Shown here piece after piece: positions 1,939 through 18,130 of a stretch of DNA of 33,202 nucleotides (within the stretch, counting starts at the first letter, position 1; each line of letters begins with the position of its first letter). Both the position numbers and the translations under genes were made by a program. The notes beneath the pieces were generated by a model, which did not search any database, was not told the origin of the DNA, and worked only from the letters and a program-made list of their open reading frames with translations. Origin of the DNA: Lachnospiraceae bacterium (GTDB lineage Bacteria > Bacillota > Clostridia > Lachnospirales > Lachnospiraceae); NCBI GenBank assembly GCA_021203465.1, contig JAJQBC010000058.1, forward strand, positions 1 through 33,202. Reading direction: 5' to 3'.

Positions 1939-2655
1939 ATGTCAAAAAACCGAAAACGGCTTCTGCCGCTCTGCCTTATTATCATTGTTATCATTCTGGG
2001 AGCTGCCGCGCTGCACAGTGTCTCTCACCGCTCCCGCGGCGTCACCCTCTACTTTGTGCGGCACGGCCAGACCGACACAAATGTGGCCGGTCTGCTGGTC
2101 GGCACCTCCGGGAACCCGACGCTGACTGAGCTTGGTGAGGAGATGGCCGCGCAGCTCGGCGAAGGTTTGAGCGATATCACCTTTGACGCGGCCTACGCAA
2201 GCACCCTGACACGTGCTTACGACACTGCCTCTCTCGTGCTCTCTGCCGCCGGGCAGGGGGACCTTCCCATCACACAGCTCGAGGGGCTATGCGATATCTC
2301 CTGGGGCGATGCGGAGGGCATGACTTCCGAAGAAATGTACGAAAAATTCGGCATCAGTACGCCCGCCGAAGCTTTCGGAAGCGTAGATGACGCCGAATTT
2401 GTCTCCCCGATCCATGCGGAGAGCAAATATGATTTCTGTGAGCGCTTTGAGGACGCAGTCTTTGAGATCCTCGAGGCACAGGAGGACGGCGACACCGTGC
2501 TGGTCGTCGCACACTCCTCGATGGACTACTTTTTCCAGAAATATTTTCTGGAACAGGCGGGCGGCGGCGTTGCGAACCTGAGCGTGACCATCCTGCGCTA
2601 TGAGAACGGTGCGTTCACGCTCGTCGACTACAACGACACGTCCTACCTACAGTGA
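1939..2655 (+). CDS. Membrane-anchored histidine phosphatase superfamily protein
   Basis: A 238-aa protein with a charged N-terminus (SKNRKR), one hydrophobic segment (about residues 8-25) and a phosphoglycerate-mutase-like domain. The hallmark RHG is at 41-43 in LYFVRHGQTDTN, and the second catalytic histidine is probably H192 in VVAHSS. The family transfers phosphate through the first histidine. Substrates range from sugar phosphates to nucleotides and cannot be told from sequence. With a single N-terminal anchor behind positive charges the catalytic domain should face outside. The start has GAAGGAAG upstream. It lies 71 nt after leuC and may be co-transcribed with it. Its last 9 bp overlap the convergent NYN gene. 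Confidence 0.85.
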   Translation: MSKNRKRLLPLCLIIIVIILGAAALHSVSHRSRGVTLYFVRHGQTDTNVAGLLVGTSGNPTLTELGEEMAAQLGEGLSDITFDAAYASTLTRAYDTASLVLSAAGQGDLPITQLEGLCDISWGDAEGMTSEEMYEKFGISTPAEAFGSVDDAEFVSPIHAESKYDFCERFEDAVFEILEAQEDGDTVLVVAHSSMDYFFQKYFLEQAGGGVANLSVTILRYENGAFTLVDYNDTSYLQ

Positions 2656-3591
2656 ATAATAATACTGCTTCAGCCGCACCACATTTCCCTCCACGCTTAA
2701 TCCCTCGATACTGCGCAGGAAGCTGGAAAAGCGGTTGTAGCCGTAATCCTTGGAGTCGAAGCCGCTGTAGTGCTTCTTCAGCTCCTCATTGATCATCGCG
2801 AGGTTGTCCACCGCCCCGCCGTTTTTACGAATAATACTCTGCACCTCGCGCTCAATCATCTCGCGCGACACGCCCCCGCTCTTCATGACGCGGTAATGAT
2901 TCTCCTCGCGCACTACCTTCAGCGACGACATTTCCTCGGAGAGGAAAACGCTGAGCTTCGAGTAACCGTAATTTCGCACATCAAAATCCGGGTATTTGTC
3001 CGACAGACGCTGCCCAATAAAACTTAAGTCCAGCTCCTCCCCACCGGACTCGTTCAGCATCGTCAGAATCGCGTTCTCCACGTCGCTGATGCTCGTTACA
3101 GAGTCCCGGTCGCTGCCGGCGCTCGAGTGGTGCTCCGAACCGCGGTTCGCCTCGTTGATCAGGTTCAGGTGCACAAATTTGTTGCAGGCACGCGTCAGCG
3201 AGAGCGGCGTCTTCGACTCGCCCATACCGAGCACATATTTTTTCTCCTCGCGCAGGCGCACCGCCAGCCTCGTGAAATCGCTGTCGCTCGTCACAAGGCA
3301 GAAGCCGTCGACCTTGTTCTGGTACAGCAGGTCCATCGCATCGATGACCATCGCCATATCTGTGCTGTTCTTGCCGGTCGTGTAGGAAAACTGCTGAATC
3401 GGCGTCACCGAGTATTCGAGCAGCGTGTTCTCCTTCCAGCCGTTCTCCTTCGACCAGTTCCCGTAGATCCGCCTGCAGGACGCAAAGCCATATTTTTCCA
3501 GTTCATCAAAAATAACCTGCACGTAGCGCGCGCTGACATTCTCCGCATCAATTAGCACCGCAAACTGCATTTTTTCTTCTATTTCCATCAT
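2647..3591 (-). CDS. NYN-domain protein with two OST-HTH/LOTUS domains
   Basis: A 314-aa cytosolic protein. Residues 8-145 form a NYN (PIN-like) domain with acidic residues at the expected places: D15 in AVLIDAEN, D78 in NSTDMAMVID, and D103/D105 in LVTSDSDF. Such domains are metal-dependent RNases. Two tandem OST-HTH (LOTUS) domains follow at about 168-235 and 244-308, each with a D-Y/N-YGY-aromatic signature (NYGYSKLSVFL and DYGYNRFSSFL). These domains bind RNA, often structured RNA. ATG codons at residues 1, 2 and 8 are possible starts; GGAGAG lies very close to the first, so residue 2 may be the real start. It lies 37 nt downstream of the sigma-like gene on the same strand, suggesting an operon. 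Confidence 0.85.
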   Translation of the reverse strand: MMEIEEKMQFAVLIDAENVSARYVQVIFDELEKYGFASCRRIYGNWSKENGWKENTLLEYSVTPIQQFSYTTGKNSTDMAMVIDAMDLLYQNKVDGFCLVTSDSDFTRLAVRLREEKKYVLGMGESKTPLSLTRACNKFVHLNLINEANRGSEHHSSAGSDRDSVTSISDVENAILTMLNESGGEELDLSFIGQRLSDKYPDFDVRNYGYSKLSVFLSEEMSSLKVVREENHYRVMKSGGVSREMIEREVQSIIRKNGGAVDNLAMINEELKKHYSGFDSKDYGYNRFSSFLRSIEGLSVEGNVVRLKQYYYSL

Positions 3592-3628
3592 TTCTCTCCA
3601 GACTACCCCTATTATGTTTTTTGTCTTT

Positions 3629-8789: not shown

Positions 8790-9962
8790 TCAGCAGTGCT
8801 TTTCCAGCCAGTCCATGGCCACCTTCGCATAAATCGCAGCCCCTCTCGGAAGGATATCCTCATTGAACAGGATGTGCGGATTGTGCTGACCATACCATTT
8901 GGACTCATCCTCTACACCCGCGCCCACAAAGAAGAAACTGGCCGGGATCCGCTCGGTGATAAACGCGAAGTCCTCCGAGCCCATCGTGTGGAACGCATTG
9001 ATCGTCTCCATCTCAGGATCCACCTCGTGAAGGCTTTCCAGAAATTCCTGCGTACAGGCATCATCGCAGACCGTGGCCGGCACATCGCTCAGAACCTCAA
9101 TCTCGAATTCTGTGCGGTAAGCCTTACATACGGACGCAACGACTTCGTGCAGTCTGCGGATCAGGAACTCGCGAAGCTCTGTCTTAAACGTACGCAGGGT
9201 ACCTTCGAGAACCGCCGTATTGGGGATGACATTGTTCGCCTTTCCGGACTCAAAATGTCCGATGGTCAACGTCGCCTCGTCCTGCGCGGAAATTTCTCTG
9301 GCCAGCAGCTCCTGCAGCCCCAGGTAGACGTGAACGCCAGTGTTGATCGGATCCACGCCCAGCTCCGGCATCGAACCATGCGTTCCTTTTCCGGTTAGCA
9401 GGATGCGGAAGCCATAGACAGAAGACATCGTATATTTCCCGTAAATCAGCGTATTATACTTCTGCGCTCCGCCCACATGCATCGCAAAGGCGGCGTCCAC
9501 CTTCGGGTTCTCCAGCAGTCCTTCTTCAATCGCCGCTTTCGAGCCGGCGAAAATCTCCTCGCCGGACTGGAAAAACAGTTTCACCGTTCCCTTCAGCTCA
9601 CTCTCATGCGCCTTCAGAAGTCTGGCCGCCCCAAGCAGGGTCGCCGCATGAAGATCATGTCCGCAGGCGTGCATGCAGCCATTTTTCGATGCAAAGGGCA
9701 GGCCGCTCTCCTCTTCTACAGGAAGAGCATCCATATCGCTGCGAAGCATGAAGCATTTCCCGCCCTGTCCCACCGTGGCAACGACGCAGGAACAGTCCTC
9801 ATATACCTGATACGTAATTCCCATCTCTGAGAGTTTCCCGGTGACATAGGCCACCGTGTTCGGAAGCGAAATTCCAAGCTCCGGGATCTGATGCAGCGCC
9901 CGGCGATCTGCCACCAGCGCTTCCTCCATATCGAGAGCTTCCTGTAATAACGGATGGATCAT
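8790..9962 (-). CDS. M20 family amidohydrolase/peptidase
   Basis: A 390-aa cytosolic metal-dependent hydrolase of the M20D type (aminoacylase, hippurate hydrolase, N-acyl amino acid and IAA-conjugate amidohydrolases). Metal-site motifs are MHACGHDLHAAT (C100, H102), the catalytic FFQSGEE (E135/E136), AMHVG (H162) and the C-terminal FHTMGSEDFAFI. The dimerisation lid domain begins near THGSMPELGVDPIN. Its start codon overlaps the stop of the upstream membrane gene (ATGA), so the two are coupled. It is the last gene of a glycine-riboswitch operon. Hydrolysis of an N-acylglycine, hippurate-like conjugate or glycine peptide is therefore a reasonable guess, but the substrate cannot be read from the sequence. 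Confidence 0.9.
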   Translation of the reverse strand: MIHPLLQEALDMEEALVADRRALHQIPELGISLPNTVAYVTGKLSEMGITYQVYEDCSCVVATVGQGGKCFMLRSDMDALPVEEESGLPFASKNGCMHACGHDLHAATLLGAARLLKAHESELKGTVKLFFQSGEEIFAGSKAAIEEGLLENPKVDAAFAMHVGGAQKYNTLIYGKYTMSSVYGFRILLTGKGTHGSMPELGVDPINTGVHVYLGLQELLAREISAQDEATLTIGHFESGKANNVIPNTAVLEGTLRTFKTELREFLIRRLHEVVASVCKAYRTEFEIEVLSDVPATVCDDACTQEFLESLHEVDPEMETINAFHTMGSEDFAFITERIPASFFFVGAGVEDESKWYGQHNPHILFNEDILPRGAAIYAKVAMDWLEKHC

Positions 9963-10663
9963 GCTTTTTCCCCTTCTTTCTTTTTATCTACCGTCAGCAT
10001 GGCAACCGCGATGCTGAAGAAAATGCACCCTAAGGTCGGGAGATAATTGCTGGCTCCCGGCAACCAGTTAAACAGACCGCCATTGATTGCAAGGTAAATC
10101 AGAATACCAAACGCAAGCACGACAACCCCCAGCTTCACCTTCTTCATGGCAAACTGCACCAGCAGCGCCCCAAACAGGGAAGGAAGCAGATAATTCAGCG
10201 CGCTCGTAACGCTCGCAGGCAGCATCGAGAGTACGGAGCTGCCCAGAATCACGCCGATCGTCAGAACAGAAATATTGATCACGATCGATACCGCCATGCC
10301 CAGTGTCGCAATCACAGAGGCCTTTTCACTGCCCGGCTCCACCTCGGCAGCCGCCTGTGCCATGCTGGCGCAAGGAACACGCATGTTGGAAATATTGCCG
10401 GACAGGAAGGCCATATAGGTTCCCACCGTACCCAGCACCGGATAGTACGAAATCGGCTCTACAAACCACAGAGCTCCAAAAGAAGCCGCACCCGCAATAA
10501 ACGCGGTCAAAAGAGCGGCCGGCTGCGGCAGCAGGCCATATACCAGCGCAAGGGCCACCGCCGGGCAAAAACACAGAATCACACCCAGAAGTCCCGTGAT
10601 CTTCCCGATCCGGTTCATCTGCGGCATATATTCTCCCTCAAAATAATCTTTCTTCTGTTCCAT
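9959..10663 (-). CDS. Polytopic membrane protein, putative transporter partner
   Basis: A 234-aa hydrophobic protein with about six or seven membrane segments. The first begins near residue 20 (ITGLLGVILCFCPAVALAL) and the last near 205 (LGCIFFSIAVAMLTV). A short charged cytosolic tail ends in KKKEGEKA. I do not recognise a named family with certainty. The conserved-looking polar patch GNISNMRVPCASMAQAAAE between membrane segments could line a substrate path. It lies 20 nt after the DUF5058-like gene and overlaps the M20 gene by 4 nt, so the three form one operon. The likely role, by context only, is one half of a two-protein membrane transporter. Confidence 0.75.
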   Translation of the reverse strand: MEQKKDYFEGEYMPQMNRIGKITGLLGVILCFCPAVALALVYGLLPQPAALLTAFIAGAASFGALWFVEPISYYPVLGTVGTYMAFLSGNISNMRVPCASMAQAAAEVEPGSEKASVIATLGMAVSIVINISVLTIGVILGSSVLSMLPASVTSALNYLLPSLFGALLVQFAMKKVKLGVVVLAFGILIYLAINGGLFNWLPGASNYLPTLGCIFFSIAVAMLTVDKKKEGEKA

Positions 10664-10683: not shown

Positions 10684-11394
10684 TTAGACCGGCAACAGCG
10701 CGGTGATAATCATGCTTCCAAGAATTGCAAAGGTCAATGCCCAGTCACGCAGCCATTTTATCTGCTTTGTCTCGCAGATTTTCATCATCACAAACATGAT
10801 AAGACCTCCGAGGATCACGGCAATCGTGTTCTTATTTACTTTCACAATATTCTGTGCGCAGAAAGACGAGAACGCACCGATGACAGCCGCGCTGGAAAGA
10901 GCCGTCAGCAGCGCCGGATTGCTCCCGGTCACTTTCTTCTGAACCTTCTCCATCTGGTCCGCGGTGAGCGTGGCGAAGATAACCCAGCCGATTGAGCACA
11001 GGATCATTGTCCAGAGGCCCATCGTATAAGCCAGCTCCGTCATCCCTGTGCTTCCCAGCTCCACGCCTACGGAAGCGGTACCAAAACCGGCTGCCAGCGA
11101 TTCAAACATGACAGAGCCGATCAGCGAGAGGCGCATCCAGGCAACCGGTCCGCCCATCGTCACCAGCAGGGACAGCATGCCGCTCAGGATTACCACCGAC
11201 GGTCCCAGCGAGGTAATCGCGCTGCTGCGCATACCTGCCTTCATCTGCTTCTGCGTCAGACCCAGCTTCGGCCCGGCCTGATACGCCTTTCGCGCAAAAA
11301 TAATCGCCTGAGCCAGTACCAAGACGACCGGAATTCCGCAGGCCACCCACATGACTGCGCTGTTCTGTAGTTCACTTACACTCATTTTCTTCAC
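10684..11394 (-). CDS. DUF5058-like polytopic membrane protein
   Basis: A 236-aa integral membrane protein that I recognise as DUF5058-like. It has a first membrane segment at about 12-31 (VMWVACGIPVVLVLAQAIIF), a positively charged loop (RKAYQAGPKLGLTQKQMK) and at least four more hydrophobic segments. The biochemical function of the family is unknown to me. It has AAGGAGTG before the ATG and is the first gene after a glycine riboswitch and its terminator. In Clostridia, glycine riboswitches commonly control glycine cleavage genes or amino-acid transporters. That makes glycine or glycine-conjugate transport the leading hypothesis. Confidence 0.75.
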   Translation of the reverse strand: MKKMSVSELQNSAVMWVACGIPVVLVLAQAIIFARKAYQAGPKLGLTQKQMKAGMRSSAITSLGPSVVILSGMLSLLVTMGGPVAWMRLSLIGSVMFESLAAGFGTASVGVELGSTGMTELAYTMGLWTMILCSIGWVIFATLTADQMEKVQKKVTGSNPALLTALSSAAVIGAFSSFCAQNIVKVNKNTIAVILGGLIMFVMMKICETKQIKWLRDWALTFAILGSMIITALLPV

Positions 11395-11456: not shown

Positions 11457-11504
11457 CTGAAGAATGCGGAACGTCTACATACAAACTGACGTATCGCCAT
11501 ATTT

Positions 11505-11612
11505 TGCATGCTCTGTCCTTTTGCCTGAGAGATCGGCGGTCGATCGCATTTCGGCCAGCCTTACACCTTCGGCGCTCCATCTTTGGAGACTCTCCAGAGT
11601 GCTCCGCCACTC
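11505..11612 (-). promoter_or_regulatory. Glycine riboswitch (apparently a single aptamer)
   Basis: Read on the minus strand, the element carries the conserved glycine-aptamer core: CTCTGGAGAG, then GCGCCGAAGGTGTAAG, then ATCTCTCAGGCAAAAGGACAG. Only one complete aptamer is seen. The sequence between it and the terminator (11457-11505) has a short ACGTC/GACGT hairpin but no second core, so this is probably a singleton with a partial neighbouring helix. Glycine binding usually switches such elements on. It controls the DUF5058-like, membrane and M20 genes. Confidence 0.88.
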
Positions 11613-11893: not shown

Positions 11894-13333
11894 TTAAATA
11901 TCCTGTTCCTCCGGCGTCCAGCGAAGCACCGGTTTGCGCGCCGCGCCGACCTCGTCAAGCCGTCCGACCGGCGTGACATGCGGAGCGCTAAGGAGCTCCT
12001 CCGGCTGCGTGCGCGCCAGTTCTGCCAGCTGTATGAATACCCCGATCGCCTCGTCCAGCGTATCCTTCGTCTCAGTCTCCGTGGGCTCGACCATCAGCGC
12101 CTCGTGCACGATCAGCGGGAAGTACATCGTCGGCGGATGAATGCCGTGATCCAGCAGTCCCTTGGCGATATCCATCGCGCTGACTCCTGTCTCCTTCTTG
12201 AGCTCACTTAAATTCATGACGAACTCGTGCATACAGATCGTGTCATAGGCCATGTGATAGCTGTCCTTCAGCCGCGCCATCATATAGTTCGCGTTCAGTA
12301 CCGCGTGCTTTGCCGCCTCCGGGATTCCCTCTTTTCCGAGCGTCTGAATGTAAGTCAGCGCGCGGACGACGACCAGAAAGTTTCCATAGAAGCCGCGCAC
12401 GCGTCCGATCGACTGTGCCGGTTTCCGGAGAATCAGCCCTTCATCGGATTTCTCCACACAGGGTCCCGGCAGAAAAGCAGCCAGATGCGCCTTGCAGCCC
12501 ACCGGACCGGAACCCGGACCGCCGCCGCCATGCGGCGTCGAGAATGTCTTGTGCAGGTTCACATGAATCACGTCAAAGCCCATGTCTCCCGGGCGGACGA
12601 CGCCCATGACTGCGTTCAGGTTCGCGCCGTCATAATAACACTGACCGCCTGCCTCGTGGATAATCTTCGTGATCTCCAGAATATTTTTATCGAAAATACC
12701 GACCGTATTCGGGTTCGTCAGCATCAGGCCCGCCGTGTCGGGGCCGACCGCGGCACGCAGCGCTTCCACATCGACGCAGCCGTTCTCATCGGACGGTACG
12801 TTGACCACGGTAAATCCTGCCATAACCGAGGAAGCCGGATTTGTGCCGTGCGCGGAGTCCGGGACAATAATCTTCGTTCTTCCGAAATCTCCCCGGCTCT
12901 TATGGTACGCCTTGATTAGCAGAAGTCCGGTGAACTCGCCATGTGCGCCGGCCGCCGGCTGCAGCGTCATGCGGTCCATGCCGGTGATCTCGCAGATCGC
13001 CTCTTCCGTCTCCTTCAGCACCCGCAGCGCGCCCTGCGCGGTCTCTACCGGCTGCAGTGGATGCAGATCCGTGAAGCCCGGCAATGCCGCCATCTCCTCA
13101 TTGATCTTCGGATTGTATTTCATCGTGCAGGAGCCGAGCGGATAGAAGCCGTCGTTCATGCCGTGCACCCGTTTCGCGAGCGCGGTGTAGTGCCGGGTCA
13201 ACTCATTCTCGCTGACATGCGGCAGGACGGGAGGCTTCCGCCTCGTGCGGGAAAGGCTCACCTTCGGGACGTCACACTCCGGCAACAGGCCCAGGCCATG
13301 CCCCTCCTGCCCTTTTTCAAAAATCAGTTTCAT
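11894..13333 (-). CDS. gcvPB: Glycine dehydrogenase (decarboxylating) subunit 2
   Basis: PLP-binding half of the split P-protein, which decarboxylates glycine and hands the aminomethyl group to lipoyl-GcvH. It is 479 aa, usual for the beta subunit. The PLP lysine is K262 in [33 protein letters not shown] near the N-terminus is the family signature. The start at 13333 overlaps the gcvPA stop in ATGA, with AAGGAGG upstream; the frame extends further but inside gcvPA. It is the last gene of the gcv operon, followed by a strong hairpin. Confidence 0.96.
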
Positions 13334-14652
13334 CTTGCCAGCACCTCCTTCACGATCGCAGCAGTCTCGTCGAGCTTCGCCCGGGAGACCATCTCCGTCG
13401 CGCACCAGAGAAGTCCACCCTCCACCGGCAGACCGCCGAGAATGCCTTTTTTCTCCAGCGCGTCCAGAATCGCCTGCGCCTTCTGAGACTCACAGACAGT
13501 GACAAACTCGTGGAAATACTCGCCCTCATATTTCAGCGGAAGCTCCGCCTCTGCGAGAAGCCCTGCCAGATAGTGCGCCTTCGCCATGCTCTGCTCTGCC
13601 GCTTCCGTGAGGCTCTTCGCTCCCATCGCGGACAGATAGACCGCCGCGGTCAGCGCGCAGAGCGCCTCATTGGAGCAGATATTGGAAGAGGCCTTCTCGC
13701 GGCGGATATGCTGCTCGCGAGCCGTCAGCGTCAGGACATAGCCGACATTCCCATCATGATCGGAAGTTTTCCCGACAATCCTGCCGGGGAGCTTGCGCAT
13801 CATGGCCTGCGTAGCGGTCATAATACCGAGATACGGGCCGCCAAAGCTTGTTGGCAGGCCAAGCGGCTGCCCCTCGCCGACCGCGATATCTGCTCCGCAC
13901 TCGCCGGGCGTCGCCATGACGGCGCAGGCGATCGGATTCACGCCCATGATGTACTTTCCTCCGGCCTCATGAATGATCGCGCCAAGCCCCTCAGCGTCCT
14001 CCATCTGGCCATAATAGTTTGGCTGCTGGATATACAGGCAGGCCGTATCAGCGCCAGCCAGCTCCTTCAGCGCATCCGCGTCCGTCTGCCCGTTCTTCTC
14101 CGATACCAGAGCAAGTTCCATGCCGGAACCAAAGCAGTAGGTGCGGATCGTCTCGATCACCTGCGGATCCGCACAGGCAGACACCAATGCTTTCCCCCTG
14201 CGGCGGTCACGGCACATGCCCACAGCCTCCGCAGCCGCGGTGCAGCCGTCATAGACAGAAGCGTTGGAGACATCCATGCCAAAAAGCTGGCAGATCATGG
14301 ACTGATATTCATAAATTGACTGCAGGATGCCCTGGCTCACCTCCGCCTGATAAGGCGTGTAGGCCGTGACAAGCTCCTCGCGCGAGATGACCGACTTCAC
14401 CACGGCAGGTATATAATGACGGTAAGACCCCGCCCCCCGCAATACGGTCGCAAAACGCGTATTCTGCGCGGCGTAAGCGCCGATAGACTCCCGCACCTCC
14501 AGCTCACTTTTTCCCGAGGGCAGCTTCAGCTCGCCCTCTGAGAGAAGCATCTCGGCGGGAACATCTTTGTAGAGCTCATCCAGCGAACGGACGCCGACGG
14601 CGTCCAACATTTTCTGCTGTTCCATCTCCGTGATGGATACATAAGAGCCCAT
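13330..14652 (-). CDS. gcvPA: Glycine dehydrogenase (decarboxylating) subunit 1
   Basis: N-terminal half of the split glycine-cleavage P-protein, 440 aa, the usual length. Clear family stretches are FLGAGSY-like [35 protein letters not shown], and the late [20 protein letters not shown]. It pairs with gcvPB as an alpha2-beta2 enzyme. It starts 2 nt after gcvH and overlaps gcvPB by 4 nt, so stoichiometric, coupled translation is likely. Confidence 0.96.
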
Positions 14653-14654
14653 AC

Positions 14655-15044
14655 TTATTCCTCCTCCTCGCAGGTCTTCAGATATTCTTCATAAGCCGCA
14701 GCATCCAGCAGCTCCTCCGTCTCCGTGATACCGCTGACCTTGATGATCCAGCTTTCATAGCAGTCCTGGTTGAGCAGCTCCGGCGCTTCGTCCAGAGCCT
14801 CGTTGACCTCTGCGATCTCTCCGGAGACCGGGCTGATCACCTCGGACACCGCCTTGACAGACTCCACATCCGTGAAAGACTCTCCGGCTGTCACGGCATC
14901 GCCGGCCTCCGGAATGTCTACGAAGACCACATCGCCCAGCGCGTCCTGCGCGTAATCGGTGATACCGATCAGAGCAGTCGTCTCATCCAGCATTTTAACC
15001 CATTCATGTGTTTTGGAATATTTCAGTTCAGCAGGGATATTCAT
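14655..15044 (-). CDS. gcvH: Glycine cleavage system H protein
   Basis: Lipoyl carrier of the glycine-cleavage system, 129 aa. The lipoylated lysine is K64 in TDVESVKAVSEV. The N-terminal KYSKTHEWVK and the central GITDYAQDALGDVVFVDIPE are typical. The start MNIPAEL at 15044 is chosen because of GGAGG 7 nt upstream. No lipoate ligase or gcvL (lpd) gene is in the window, so the lipoylation and dihydrolipoamide dehydrogenase functions must come from elsewhere. Confidence 0.96.
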   Translation of the reverse strand: MNIPAELKYSKTHEWVKMLDETTALIGITDYAQDALGDVVFVDIPEAGDAVTAGESFTDVESVKAVSEVISPVSGEIAEVNEALDEAPELLNQDCYESWIIKVSGITETEELLDAAAYEEYLKTCEEEE

Positions 15045-15076
15045 TTTTATTTCCTCCATTATAATGATTTACAATT

Positions 15077-15173: not shown

Positions 15174-17825
15174 TTAGAAGCCCAGTTTCTCAGACAAGGC
15201 GCCGAACGCGCCTTCCATCTGCGCGTCGGTGAAGCAGTATTTCGGCTCGGTGAAGCCCGCGCGCAGTTTCTTGATCTCTTCTCCTACTTCAGCCCCGTTC
15301 AAAACGCAGTCTGCCATCAGCTCTGCCAGCTTCTTGAACTCCATCTCGCCGAAGCCAAAGCGCGTCATCTCGGAGACGCCCATGCGCAGCGCTCCCGAGG
15401 CGGTGAAGCCCTCGTTGTCGGGTGTAGCCTGATAGTTGACGATAATATTATTTCGCTCCAGGCGCTCGGCGACCTCATAGCCCTGGCCGTAACCGACGGA
15501 TGCGATGACCTGATGCGTCTCGGTGTAGTCGATCGCGGGATCGCCGGCCACCTCCATACCGGCCTCCTTCAGACACTTCGCGAAGTACTTTGCATTGTGA
15601 ACAACCGCGCTCTGATACGCATCCTTGAATGCGTTCATCTCGTAGGCGGCCATCAGCATGCCGAGCTGCGTGCCGAGGTGATGGTTGGAGACGCTGCCCG
15701 GGAACGCGCGGGTCTCGATCGTCTCCCACAGACCGTATTTCAAGTCCTCCTTCTTCCAGTTCGTGCCGATCACGCCGCGCTGCGGTCCGAAGAAAGTCTT
15801 GTGCGTCGAGCCGGTGACGATCTCCGCGCCCTCCTCAAAGGGTTTCTGGAAATGATCGCCCATCAGGCCAAGGACATGCGCCATATCGTACATGATCGTC
15901 GTCTGGATACCCTGCTCGTCCACAAATTTCCGGATCTCAGCCACCGGCTCCCTGTGAAGCACCATGGATTTCCCGAAAATAATCAGCTCCGGACGGTAAC
16001 GCTCAAGCAGCCCCTTCGCGGCCTCCACGTCGATCTTGTAGGGATTGTCCGCGCACACCGGGAAATTCACCAGTGCCGGTTTCTCTGTCACGGGATCAAC
16101 GGCGATGTAATCGTGCAGCGCCCCCATCGGCTGCGCGGACAGATGACCGCCGCGGATAATATGGTTATTCATAATGTAGCCGAGGCGCTTCGGCGTCACC
16201 TTGTGGTCGACGCGGTTCTTAAAATCCATCAGCGCGGAGAACACGGCGGTATTTGCCATCTGGCCGGAGGTCACGCGGGTCTCGACCTCCGTGCATCCCA
16301 GATATTTGCGCATCTCGTCCACCAGCAGGCACTCGACCTCCTCGATGAATTTTGTTCCCTGATAATAGAAGACCTCACTGTCATAGAAAGCGCGCACCTT
16401 CTTGTGCTCCGCATAGCGGTTGCTCGGATCCGAGGCGCACAGCGCATGCACGGCCGGTGATGCCGTCATCTCCGAAGGAATCAAGTTCACACACTCACTC
16501 TGTCTCCAGACCTGGTTGCCCGCGGCTTTCTGAAGGAGCGCGGCTGCCTTCGCGGCATAATCGTCGCTGACATGCAGCTCCTCTTCCTCCTCCGGCTGCC
16601 ACAGGATGGGCCGCGCAAAAGGCGGTGCGTCGGTGCGCATATGATAAGGCACGACGACCGCGTCGAGTTTCTTTCCGCGCACGTCAATCTGCACATGGTC
16701 GTCGTTGATCAGATCACTCTTCAGGTAGGCCAGACCAATCGAGCGCCGGGACATCTCGTCCAGAATCTCCGTCGCCATGCCCTCACCCTCTGTATTAAAA
16801 TAGGGAACCATCGTGCCGGAGGTCACATAGCCGACCTCCTCGCCGTCCCGGTAGATCGGAAAACCGGCGCGCAGCACACCCTTTTCGAGCAGCGCGATCG
16901 GACGGATGCGGTAAGGCAGATCCGCGCAGGCCGCAAAATCGCGGTTCAGAATGCGGCGGAACGCGGCGGCCTGCTTCTGAAGCGGCTTCCTGCCCACGAA
17001 ATCTCCCTTATTCTCCGCGAAGGAGACCGCGAATTTAGCCAGCGGCACAGAGAAAATCGGGATATCCTCCCCATATTTATTGATCCCCATCTCATGGCCA
17101 TAGAGCGGCAGCGCAGCCTCCAAACGCAGCGTGTCGCGCGCGCCAAGAGCGGCGGGATGCGCGCCCATGTCCATCAACTTTTTCCAGAAATATTCCGCCT
17201 TCTCCGAGGCGATGAAAATCTCATAGCCCAGCGGCTCGCCGGTGTAACCGGTCTTCGCGATGCGCACCGGGATACCGTCGATTTCCGTCGTGGCCAGCGC
17301 GTTCTTGCTCGGATCCTCGGTCGGCTGTTTCCCATTCAGCATGGAAATCAGGATTCCCTTTGACTTCGGTCCCTGGATGGAGATCGAAGCCGTCCTGTCG
17401 CTGACATCCTCGATCGTGACATCGTAATCCTTCGCGTAAGAGAAAAGGTGCTCCTTGTCCTTTTCAATGTTGGCGGCGTTGATCACAAGGAAATAATTGC
17501 CCTCCTCATAGCGGTAAAGATACGCGTCGTCGACCGCGCCGCCGGTCTCATTCGGAATGATGCAGTACTGCGCCTGATTCAGCTCCAGCGCCTCCACATT
17601 GCTGCTCAACACATGCTGCAGGAATTCCACCATCTGCGGCCCGCTGACGACAAGTCTCCCCATATGGGAGACGTCGAAGATGCCGCAGCCCTGCCGCGTC
17701 TTAAGATGCTCCTCCACAATGCCGCAGGGATACTGAATCGGCATATCCCAGCCGCCGAAGTCCACCATCTTTGCGCCGAGTTCCACGTGGACATCATGAA
17801 GTACCGTTTTTTTCAGTTCGCTCAA
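15174..17825 (-). CDS. Fused glycine-cleavage T-protein and serine hydroxymethyltransferase-like protein
   Basis: One uninterrupted 883-aa frame joins two enzymes. Residues 1-400 are a GcvT aminomethyltransferase (FGGWDMPIQY, FDVSHMG with catalytic-region D51, GARDTLRLEAALPLYGHEM), which releases ammonia and makes methylene-THF from aminomethyl-GcvH. After an acidic linker (about 403-420), residues 422-883 are a PLP enzyme of the SHMT/GlyA family, with the PLP lysine K676 in GSTHKTFFGPQRG. SHMT uses methylene-THF and a second glycine to make serine, so the fusion links consecutive steps. The SHMT half is divergent (NLIPSEMT instead of the common ELIASEN), and the GcvT half has extra segments near 285-305 and 345-365. 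The start is TTG at 17825, supported by GGAGGAGGG. The gene is directly downstream of the tandem glycine riboswitch. Confidence 0.9.
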   Translation of the reverse strand: MSELKKTVLHDVHVELGAKMVDFGGWDMPIQYPCGIVEEHLKTRQGCGIFDVSHMGRLVVSGPQMVEFLQHVLSSNVEALELNQAQYCIIPNETGGAVDDAYLYRYEEGNYFLVINAANIEKDKEHLFSYAKDYDVTIEDVSDRTASISIQGPKSKGILISMLNGKQPTEDPSKNALATTEIDGIPVRIAKTGYTGEPLGYEIFIASEKAEYFWKKLMDMGAHPAALGARDTLRLEAALPLYGHEMGINKYGEDIPIFSVPLAKFAVSFAENKGDFVGRKPLQKQAAAFRRILNRDFAACADLPYRIRPIALLEKGVLRAGFPIYRDGEEVGYVTSGTMVPYFNTEGEGMATEILDEMSRRSIGLAYLKSDLINDDHVQIDVRGKKLDAVVVPYHMRTDAPPFARPILWQPEEEEELHVSDDYAAKAAALLQKAAGNQVWRQSECVNLIPSEMTASPAVHALCASDPSNRYAEHKKVRAFYDSEVFYYQGTKFIEEVECLLVDEMRKYLGCTEVETRVTSGQMANTAVFSALMDFKNRVDHKVTPKRLGYIMNNHIIRGGHLSAQPMGALHDYIAVDPVTEKPALVNFPVCADNPYKIDVEAAKGLLERYRPELIIFGKSMVLHREPVAEIRKFVDEQGIQTTIMYDMAHVLGLMGDHFQKPFEEGAEIVTGSTHKTFFGPQRGVIGTNWKKEDLKYGLWETIETRAFPGSVSNHHLGTQLGMLMAAYEMNAFKDAYQSAVVHNAKYFAKCLKEAGMEVAGDPAIDYTETHQVIASVGYGQGYEVAERLERNNIIVNYQATPDNEGFTASGALRMGVSEMTRFGFGEMEFKKLAELMADCVLNGAEVGEEIKKLRAGFTEPKYCFTDAQMEGAFGALSEKLGF

Positions 17826-17865
17826 AATAACCCTCCTCCGTTTCATAAAATTAGAACAACCCGAC

Positions 17866-17906
17866 AAAAAAGACGGCGCACGCCCTTTTTATCGGCGCAC
17901 CCCGTC
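17866..17906 (-). terminator. Intrinsic terminator of the gcv glycine riboswitch
   Basis: On the minus strand a stem of about 13 bp with one mismatch and two G-U pairs (17894-17906 with 17872-17884) is followed by six U residues (17866-17871). Its 5' arm overlaps the end of aptamer II, as expected for a riboswitch expression platform. Confidence 0.85.
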
Positions 17907-18068
17907 CTGGTACCTGAAAGATTGTCCCGCTATCCGCGGAATTACTTCTTCGGTGTTCATCTGAGAACTTTCCGGAGAGCTGTCAGGATCTTGTCCTTTT
18001 GCCTGAGAGTTTACCTGCAACTGCCCCTTCGGCTCCGCGTGAAATATGTTCCGCGGCCTCTCCAAAAC
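17901..18068 (-). promoter_or_regulatory. Tandem glycine riboswitch
   Basis: Two glycine aptamers lie in series on the minus strand. Aptamer I (about 18068-17987) has TTGGAGAGGCC, GAGCCGAAGGGGCA and ACTCTCAGGCAAAAGGACA. Aptamer II (about 17986-17901) has AGCTCTCCGGAAAG, ACACCGAAGAAGTAA and ATCTTTCAGGTACCAGGAC. The arrangement is the classical gcvT element, which activates glycine-cleavage genes when glycine is plentiful. The terminator follows directly, then the TTG start of the fusion gene. Confidence 0.95.
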
Positions 18069-18100
18069 CCGTCATCCAGCGATATTCTGTTCTGGTTTTC

Positions 18101-18130
18101 AGTATAACAATAAACCAAATTTCATGTCAA
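18101..18130 (-). promoter_or_regulatory. Promoter of the glycine-cleavage operon
   Basis: On the minus strand there is TTGACA (18125-18130), an 18-nt spacer and TATACT (18101-18106). The start is near 18094, just upstream of aptamer I. The boxes are near consensus, in keeping with a leader regulated by termination rather than initiation. Confidence 0.8.

Follow-up and report, generated by a model that had tools for sequence, protein, structure and literature searches.

Can a cell dispense with glyA, the canonical gene for serine hydroxymethyltransferase (SHMT), once it carries an SHMT fused to an enzyme of glycine cleavage? This question is raised by a 33,202-nucleotide stretch of DNA from a Lachnospiraceae bacterium (assembly GCA_021203465.1, contig JAJQBC010000058.1), which was analyzed at its full length and is called the window here. 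On the minus strand, positions 15174–17825 encode a single 883-aa protein that joins GcvT, the T-protein of the glycine cleavage system (GCS), to an SHMT. Our comparisons indicate that this fusion is probably a glycine-induced bifunctional enzyme that converts two glycines into serine and acts as the sole SHMT in some lineages. What is new here is that the window's genome, like 29 of 50 further genomes with the fusion, showed no SHMT other than the fused one.

Two enzymes in one reading frame

Translation of the plus strand across 15174–17825 is interrupted by stops. On the minus strand, the whole open frame runs from 17867 to 15174 (897 codons), and the predicted protein begins within it, at a TTG codon at 17825 with a ribosome-binding site, GGAGGAGGG, just upstream. 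Homologues aligned from the identical first residue and M1 was invariant, which supports the TTG start; an in-frame ATG seven codons farther upstream precedes the ribosome-binding site and was not preferred. Pfam placed GCV_T at residues 9–247 (5.8e-75), GCV_T_C at 315–343, and SHMT at 436–836 (4.9e-39) in this one frame. The GcvT half comprises residues 1–405 (16611–17825, minus) and the SHMT half residues 406–883 (15177–16610, minus), with the pyridoxal phosphate (PLP) lysine at K676.

The SHMT half was used to scan one genome per species (84,980 species). The scan gave 556 pattern matches, of which 532 were relatives, and the best 80 of these were studied in detail. All 80 were fused (L094 with its sequence split between two frames that overlap; L049 and L082 truncated at contig ends), so that the fused count among the 532 lies between 80 and 532. 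The break in L094 is all that was found in favor of a sequencing or assembly artefact as the origin of the joint frame. The frame was continuous in 79 of the 80 separate records and also in the 861-kb replicon of Vescimonas fastidiosa MM35, which rules an artefact out with near certainty.

By record title, the best 80 relatives included 36 Oscillospiraceae (with strains of Oscillibacter valericigenes and O. ruminantium), 31 Bacillota without a family, and seven Lachnospiraceae; the rest were one Anaerovoracaceae, one Actinomycetota, one Bacteroidota, and three without a phylum, odd labels of metagenome-assembled genomes (MAGs) being taken as given. With the window's own genome counted each time, the fusion occurred in 3 of 397 genomes sampled from the family (threshold 1e-45), 6 of 391 from the class (1e-35), and 2 of 398 from the phylum (1e-45); the matches below threshold were all frames of 884–924 aa, long enough for the fusion. 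In the window's genus it was present in 5 of 17 genomes. No close relative in unfused form was seen in these samples or among the best 80 of the species scan. Phage and plasmid records searched with the SHMT half yielded one fused relative, that of V. fastidiosa, the other matches being less than 60% identical. In V. fastidiosa MM35 (L161) the fusion operon lies on the second replicon, pMM35_01.

Both halves kept the residues expected of working enzymes. The GcvT half passed the curated models TIGR00528 (266.5 bits; cut-off 235.85) and NF001567 (323.1; cut-off 300), and D100 (T. maritima D96), Y194, E202, and R230 were present in 71 of 71 aligned members; we take these to be the catalytic aspartate and folate-site positions. 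The SHMT half scored 134.5 bits against a Pfam cut-off of 27. K676 and ten other SHMT positions, whose roles in substrate and folate binding we assume, were found in all 71 members, and S451 in 70. From the residues kept, both halves would be active, and no sign of a dead half was found.

The SHMT half is divergent. Its nearest solved structure is the SHMT of Methanocaldococcus jannaschii (4bhd/4uqv; 30–35% identity), by fold only narrowly, and in the tree it separates from canonical bacterial GlyA with full support (100/100). An alternative is that this half is a threonine aldolase or transaldolase-like enzyme and not an SHMT. An ObiH-like L-threonine transaldolase came close to a tie in Z score and, in a tree with long branches, grouped on the same side as the fusion; in sequence it was well behind the M. 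jannaschii SHMT, and we regard this alternative as very improbable. The AlphaFold monomer has low confidence at residues 470–489, 556–566, and 709–714, which would be consistent with a second subunit completing sites there.

The original prediction had described a GcvT and a divergent SHMT in one continuous frame, an NLIPSEMT motif, intact motifs in both halves, and extra segments relative to stand-alone enzymes. All of this held: the window carries NLIPSEMT where the family consensus is NLIPSENT, the GcvT half has extra residues compared with T. maritima GcvT (about 251–255, 290–293, and 299–308), and the loops of M. jannaschii SHMT are shorter. The prediction had also called the fusion rare, which the size of the family contradicts. 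It named a wide, already characterized family with one dead half as what would speak against it; the family is indeed wide, both halves kept their catalytic residues, and no description of a GcvT–SHMT fusion was found in the openly licensed full-text literature, although one may exist in print elsewhere.

Probable replacement of glyA by the fusion

The prediction had further suggested a check of the genome for a separate glyA. A Pfam SHMT search of the window's genome (98.47% complete) found none, and no SHMT besides the fusion. Four of the five fusion-bearing congeners lacked a canonical glyA; the fifth, G001, keeps both genes. Among the fusion-less congeners, 11 of 12 had a full-length SHMT (four confirmed also by Pfam), and G008 (88% complete) had a fragment. 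The association across congeners gave Fisher p = 0.0021 with G008 scored as present and 0.0099 with G008 scored as absent, on rows that are not independent because the five fusion-bearers are close kin. The 50 further genomes, drawn from 76 loci, were searched alongside 14 control genomes, all of which gave an SHMT signal; the 29 without a canonical SHMT held the fusion only. Genome G278 likewise had the fusion and no other SHMT. Because these genomes showed no second SHMT and glyA is missing in four of five fusion-bearing congeners, the SHMT half is very probably functional and appears to have replaced glyA in part of the fusion's range. Where glyA is gone, it would be the only SHMT of the cell.

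The home locus of glyA could be followed in G001, where the order is glnS-type synthetase, 104-aa gene, glyA, mscL, thyA, dhfr, ftsW, ispG, and polC. The DNA of the window's genome (G000) follows this stretch as far as base 2188 and matches it again from 3520 onward, apart from a short gap at 3557–3611. As the break spans the G001 glyA (2268–3518), G000 has lost the gene together with its leader and has about 320 unrelated bases in their place. In G014, bases 2190–3610 of the G001 stretch are missing. An assembly gap was rejected in both genomes, since the locus is complete on both sides in one contig, and no glyA remnant was detected there (best tblastn E 0.061). Genomes G011 and G012 match the G001 stretch from 3520 on; only the mscL side was seen, and the evidence that they lack glyA is the genome-wide search. 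At the position of the G001 glyA, next to mscL, G011 has a Fic gene and a recombinase-type zinc-ribbon frame (L158, 10813–11589), and G012 a Fic gene fragment at the point where its contig begins (L159).

The G001 glyA is 81–83% identical to the glyA of four congeners, which resembles the ispG identity to two congeners (82–83%), so this glyA looks native. By ispG, the five genomes with the fusion make up a single tight cluster (94.9–98.1%). The pairing of G001 with G014 (97.8%) suggests at least two losses of glyA; alternatively, G001 may have regained the gene through recombination.

In the fusion-less congeners a Pfam search for GcvT found nothing in G005 and a weak fragment in G015, and in G002 and G007 the GcvT-like matches were weak (best E 2e-6 to 8e-6). 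Upstream of lepA in six fusion-less congeners (about 18 kb searched in five, 2.7 kb in one) there was no match to the fusion, gcv genes, DUF5058, 234-aa protein, M20, bactofilin, vanY, or M23. On this comparison, the GCS block beside lepA is an addition or a loss within the genus. Given the weak or absent GcvT and the missing block in these congeners, the clade seems to have first gained the GCS block and later lost glyA.

Probable glycine control and direction of flow

The leader of the operon, all on the minus strand, contains a promoter-like site that matches the consensus at 11 of 12 positions (TTGACA-18-TATACT, 18101–18130; a consensus match only) and a glycine riboswitch, as the original prediction had proposed. 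The first aptamer (17981–18075) passes the gathering cut-off of the RF00504 covariance model (57 vs. 32 bits), a second, tandem aptamer is weak (17897–17980; 20.7 bits, E 0.0012), and a terminator-like hairpin is predicted by folding between the riboswitch and the start codon (17861–17895). A riboswitch match was present within 700 bases upstream of the fusion operon in 67 of the 80 loci, seven of which contributed to building the riboswitch model. Extra glycine riboswitch matches on the opposite strand lie upstream of the operon in L098 (4636–4710, minus) and L069 (1507–1598, minus). Glycine riboswitches that precede cleavage genes are generally switched on by glycine. By analogy, the riboswitch of the fusion operon would be an ON switch; PMC3519856 suggests a glycine-ON riboswitch for Clostridium acidurici.

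Behind the fusion gene follow, on the minus strand, gcvH (14655–15059), gcvPA (13330–14652), and gcvPB, a long frame that overlaps gcvPA (11894–13405). The gene gcvH is downstream of the fusion in 79 of the 80 loci. In the proposed scheme, GcvP (PA and PB) would decarboxylate glycine and load the aminomethyl group onto GcvH. The GcvT half would then release ammonia and form methylene-tetrahydrofolate (methylene-THF), whose one-carbon (C1) unit the SHMT half would transfer to a second glycine, so that serine would be formed and THF set free. The net result would be serine, CO2, NH3, and reducing power from two glycines, with THF merely cycling. High glycine would turn the operon on through the tandem riboswitch acting on the terminator. 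As a reading, the glycine-to-serine logic of the original prediction was right.

Flow in reverse was also considered: serine would give glycine and methylene-THF, with glycine cleavage adding another C1 unit plus NADH; or, in full reversal, glycine synthase would feed serine from CO2 and formate. Where the fusion is the sole SHMT found, some conditions may require it to deliver both glycine and C1 units, and the glycine-synthase direction described for C. acidurici (PMC3519856) counts for this reading. The riboswitch in 67 loci points instead to glycine disposal, and in the synthesis direction both halves would consume methylene-THF, so that joining them would pass nothing on. We therefore consider reverse flow unlikely. 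The main flow would run from glycine to serine, which is favored by the riboswitch and by the fact that one half makes what the other uses only in that direction. In cells whose only SHMT is the fusion, a strictly one-way flow is doubtful, because that enzyme must also supply glycine or C1 units at low glycine unless there is another source.

Several observations weigh against a glycine-induced serine-forming enzyme that stands in for glyA. Five of 15 compared GcvT positions differ (Y168, E180, Y236, L97, T316; the other ten are identical), and Y168, E180, and Y236 are presumably folate contacts. Five of 20 E. coli SHMT positions are changed in 71 of 71 members (S99 to Q, L121 to I, T226 to S, R235 to Q, N347 to Q), of which we take N347 to be a folate contact, and position 349 differs too. 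Of the 80 loci, 12 gave no riboswitch match (contig ends truncate three of these), and the match in L099 is 1.8 kb from the operon. Canonical glyA stood alongside the fusion in 21 of the 50 further genomes; the genomes that keep it include the three named, cultured Oscillibacter strains L034, L036, and L037 as well as G001, G307, and G543, so replacement is not general. The fusion-only genomes are mostly MAGs or uncultured by title, and the 50 come without completeness figures. Seven of the 29 hold a second, weak Pfam SHMT match (E 2.3e-8 to 2.4e-6); four of these exceed the Pfam cut-off, and all were assumed to be other PLP enzymes and left uncounted. Finally, a glycine-induced sole SHMT would be poorly placed to form glycine from serine.

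It is also conceivable that the fusion merely fixes a 1:1 ratio and co-expression, while methylene-THF mixes with the pool and no channelling occurs. The joint at residues 401–440 is among the least conserved stretches (mean identity 0.59 and 0.62), and the model's pLDDT dips to 57 at 411–420, as in a linker. The near-constant length of the protein (878–888 aa in 71 members, 882 aa in 52 of them) and the additional GcvT segments hint that the joint is more than a loose tether, although these two features do not bear directly on channelling. We give the plain linker slightly less than an even chance. More speculative, and in our judgment improbable, is a "serine synthase" that passes methylene-THF from the GcvT site to the SHMT site. 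It would have originated a single time with an archaeal-like SHMT, moved among gut bacteria as an operon, and repeatedly displaced glyA, serine and C1 metabolism being fed from glycine through one glycine-switched enzyme.

Downstream, a second glycine riboswitch (11503–11607, minus; 60.3 bits) precedes a pair of membrane-protein genes. These encode a DUF5058 protein by Pfam, a candidate transporter subunit (10684–11394, minus), and a 234-aa protein without a Pfam family (9959–10663, minus); an M20 amidohydrolase follows (8790–9962, minus). The 234-aa protein adjoins DUF5058 wherever both were seen, and the pair may be a system that takes up glycine or a compound containing it. The same pair flanks the fusion operon in L076 (with M20), L104, and L107. 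The term DUF5058 was absent from the openly licensed full-text literature searched. The gene lpdA is downstream of the operon in 45 of the 80 fetched stretches and does not follow it in the window. A lipoate ligase precedes lpdA in L035 and L060 and follows gcvPB in L092. In V. fastidiosa, a 5-formyl-THF cyclo-ligase gene lies directly after lpdA; it was not found there in the 80 stretches, which gave a single distant match (L043). In L051 (8578–9870), a second GcvT without SHMT sits right behind the fusion gene and groups with the fused GcvTs. In L029 (8824–11636; G014), a MAG, gcvPA and gcvPB each appear split over two frames with the fusion intact, through sequencing error or decay.

Known systems and annotation

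The closest metabolic parallel is the glycine–serine–pyruvate pathway of C. acidurici. According to PMC3519856, SHMT likewise adds cleavage-made methylene-THF to glycine, and a two-aptamer glycine riboswitch precedes the cleavage genes, as here; GlyA has its own distant locus tag there, whereas the divergent SHMT of the window shares one protein with GcvT. Streptomyces gcvT-gcvH-glyA-sdhA operons place the same enzymes under one leader with contiguous glycine riboswitches (PMC12452182); gcvT and glyA are separate genes there and do not encode a single protein. In dimethylglycine oxidase, DMGDH, and sarcosine oxidase alpha, a GcvT-like domain is fused to a C1-producing flavin enzyme that supplies the folate domain; here the partner is a PLP enzyme that uses methylene-THF. 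The M. jannaschii SHMT is a stand-alone archaeal enzyme that works with archaeal pterins. Canonical bacterial GlyA shares the fold and most catalytic residues with the fusion SHMT.

Current annotation overlooks the SHMT half. The fusion falls below the NF000586 cut-off of 335 (246.9 bits for the window protein, 261–275 for three relatives), and the RefSeq name of V. fastidiosa WP_212821284.1 is only "glycine cleavage system aminomethyltransferase GcvT". SHMT is usually regarded as near-essential. Gut bacteria that carry only the fusion would count as SHMT-negative although the enzyme sits in a gene called gcvT, and metabolic models resting on such annotation would be wrong. The two-site protein allows a direct test of folate channelling, and the congeners that carry the fusion alone, both genes, or glyA alone offer a natural experiment that asks if a central enzyme can be replaced by a fused one.
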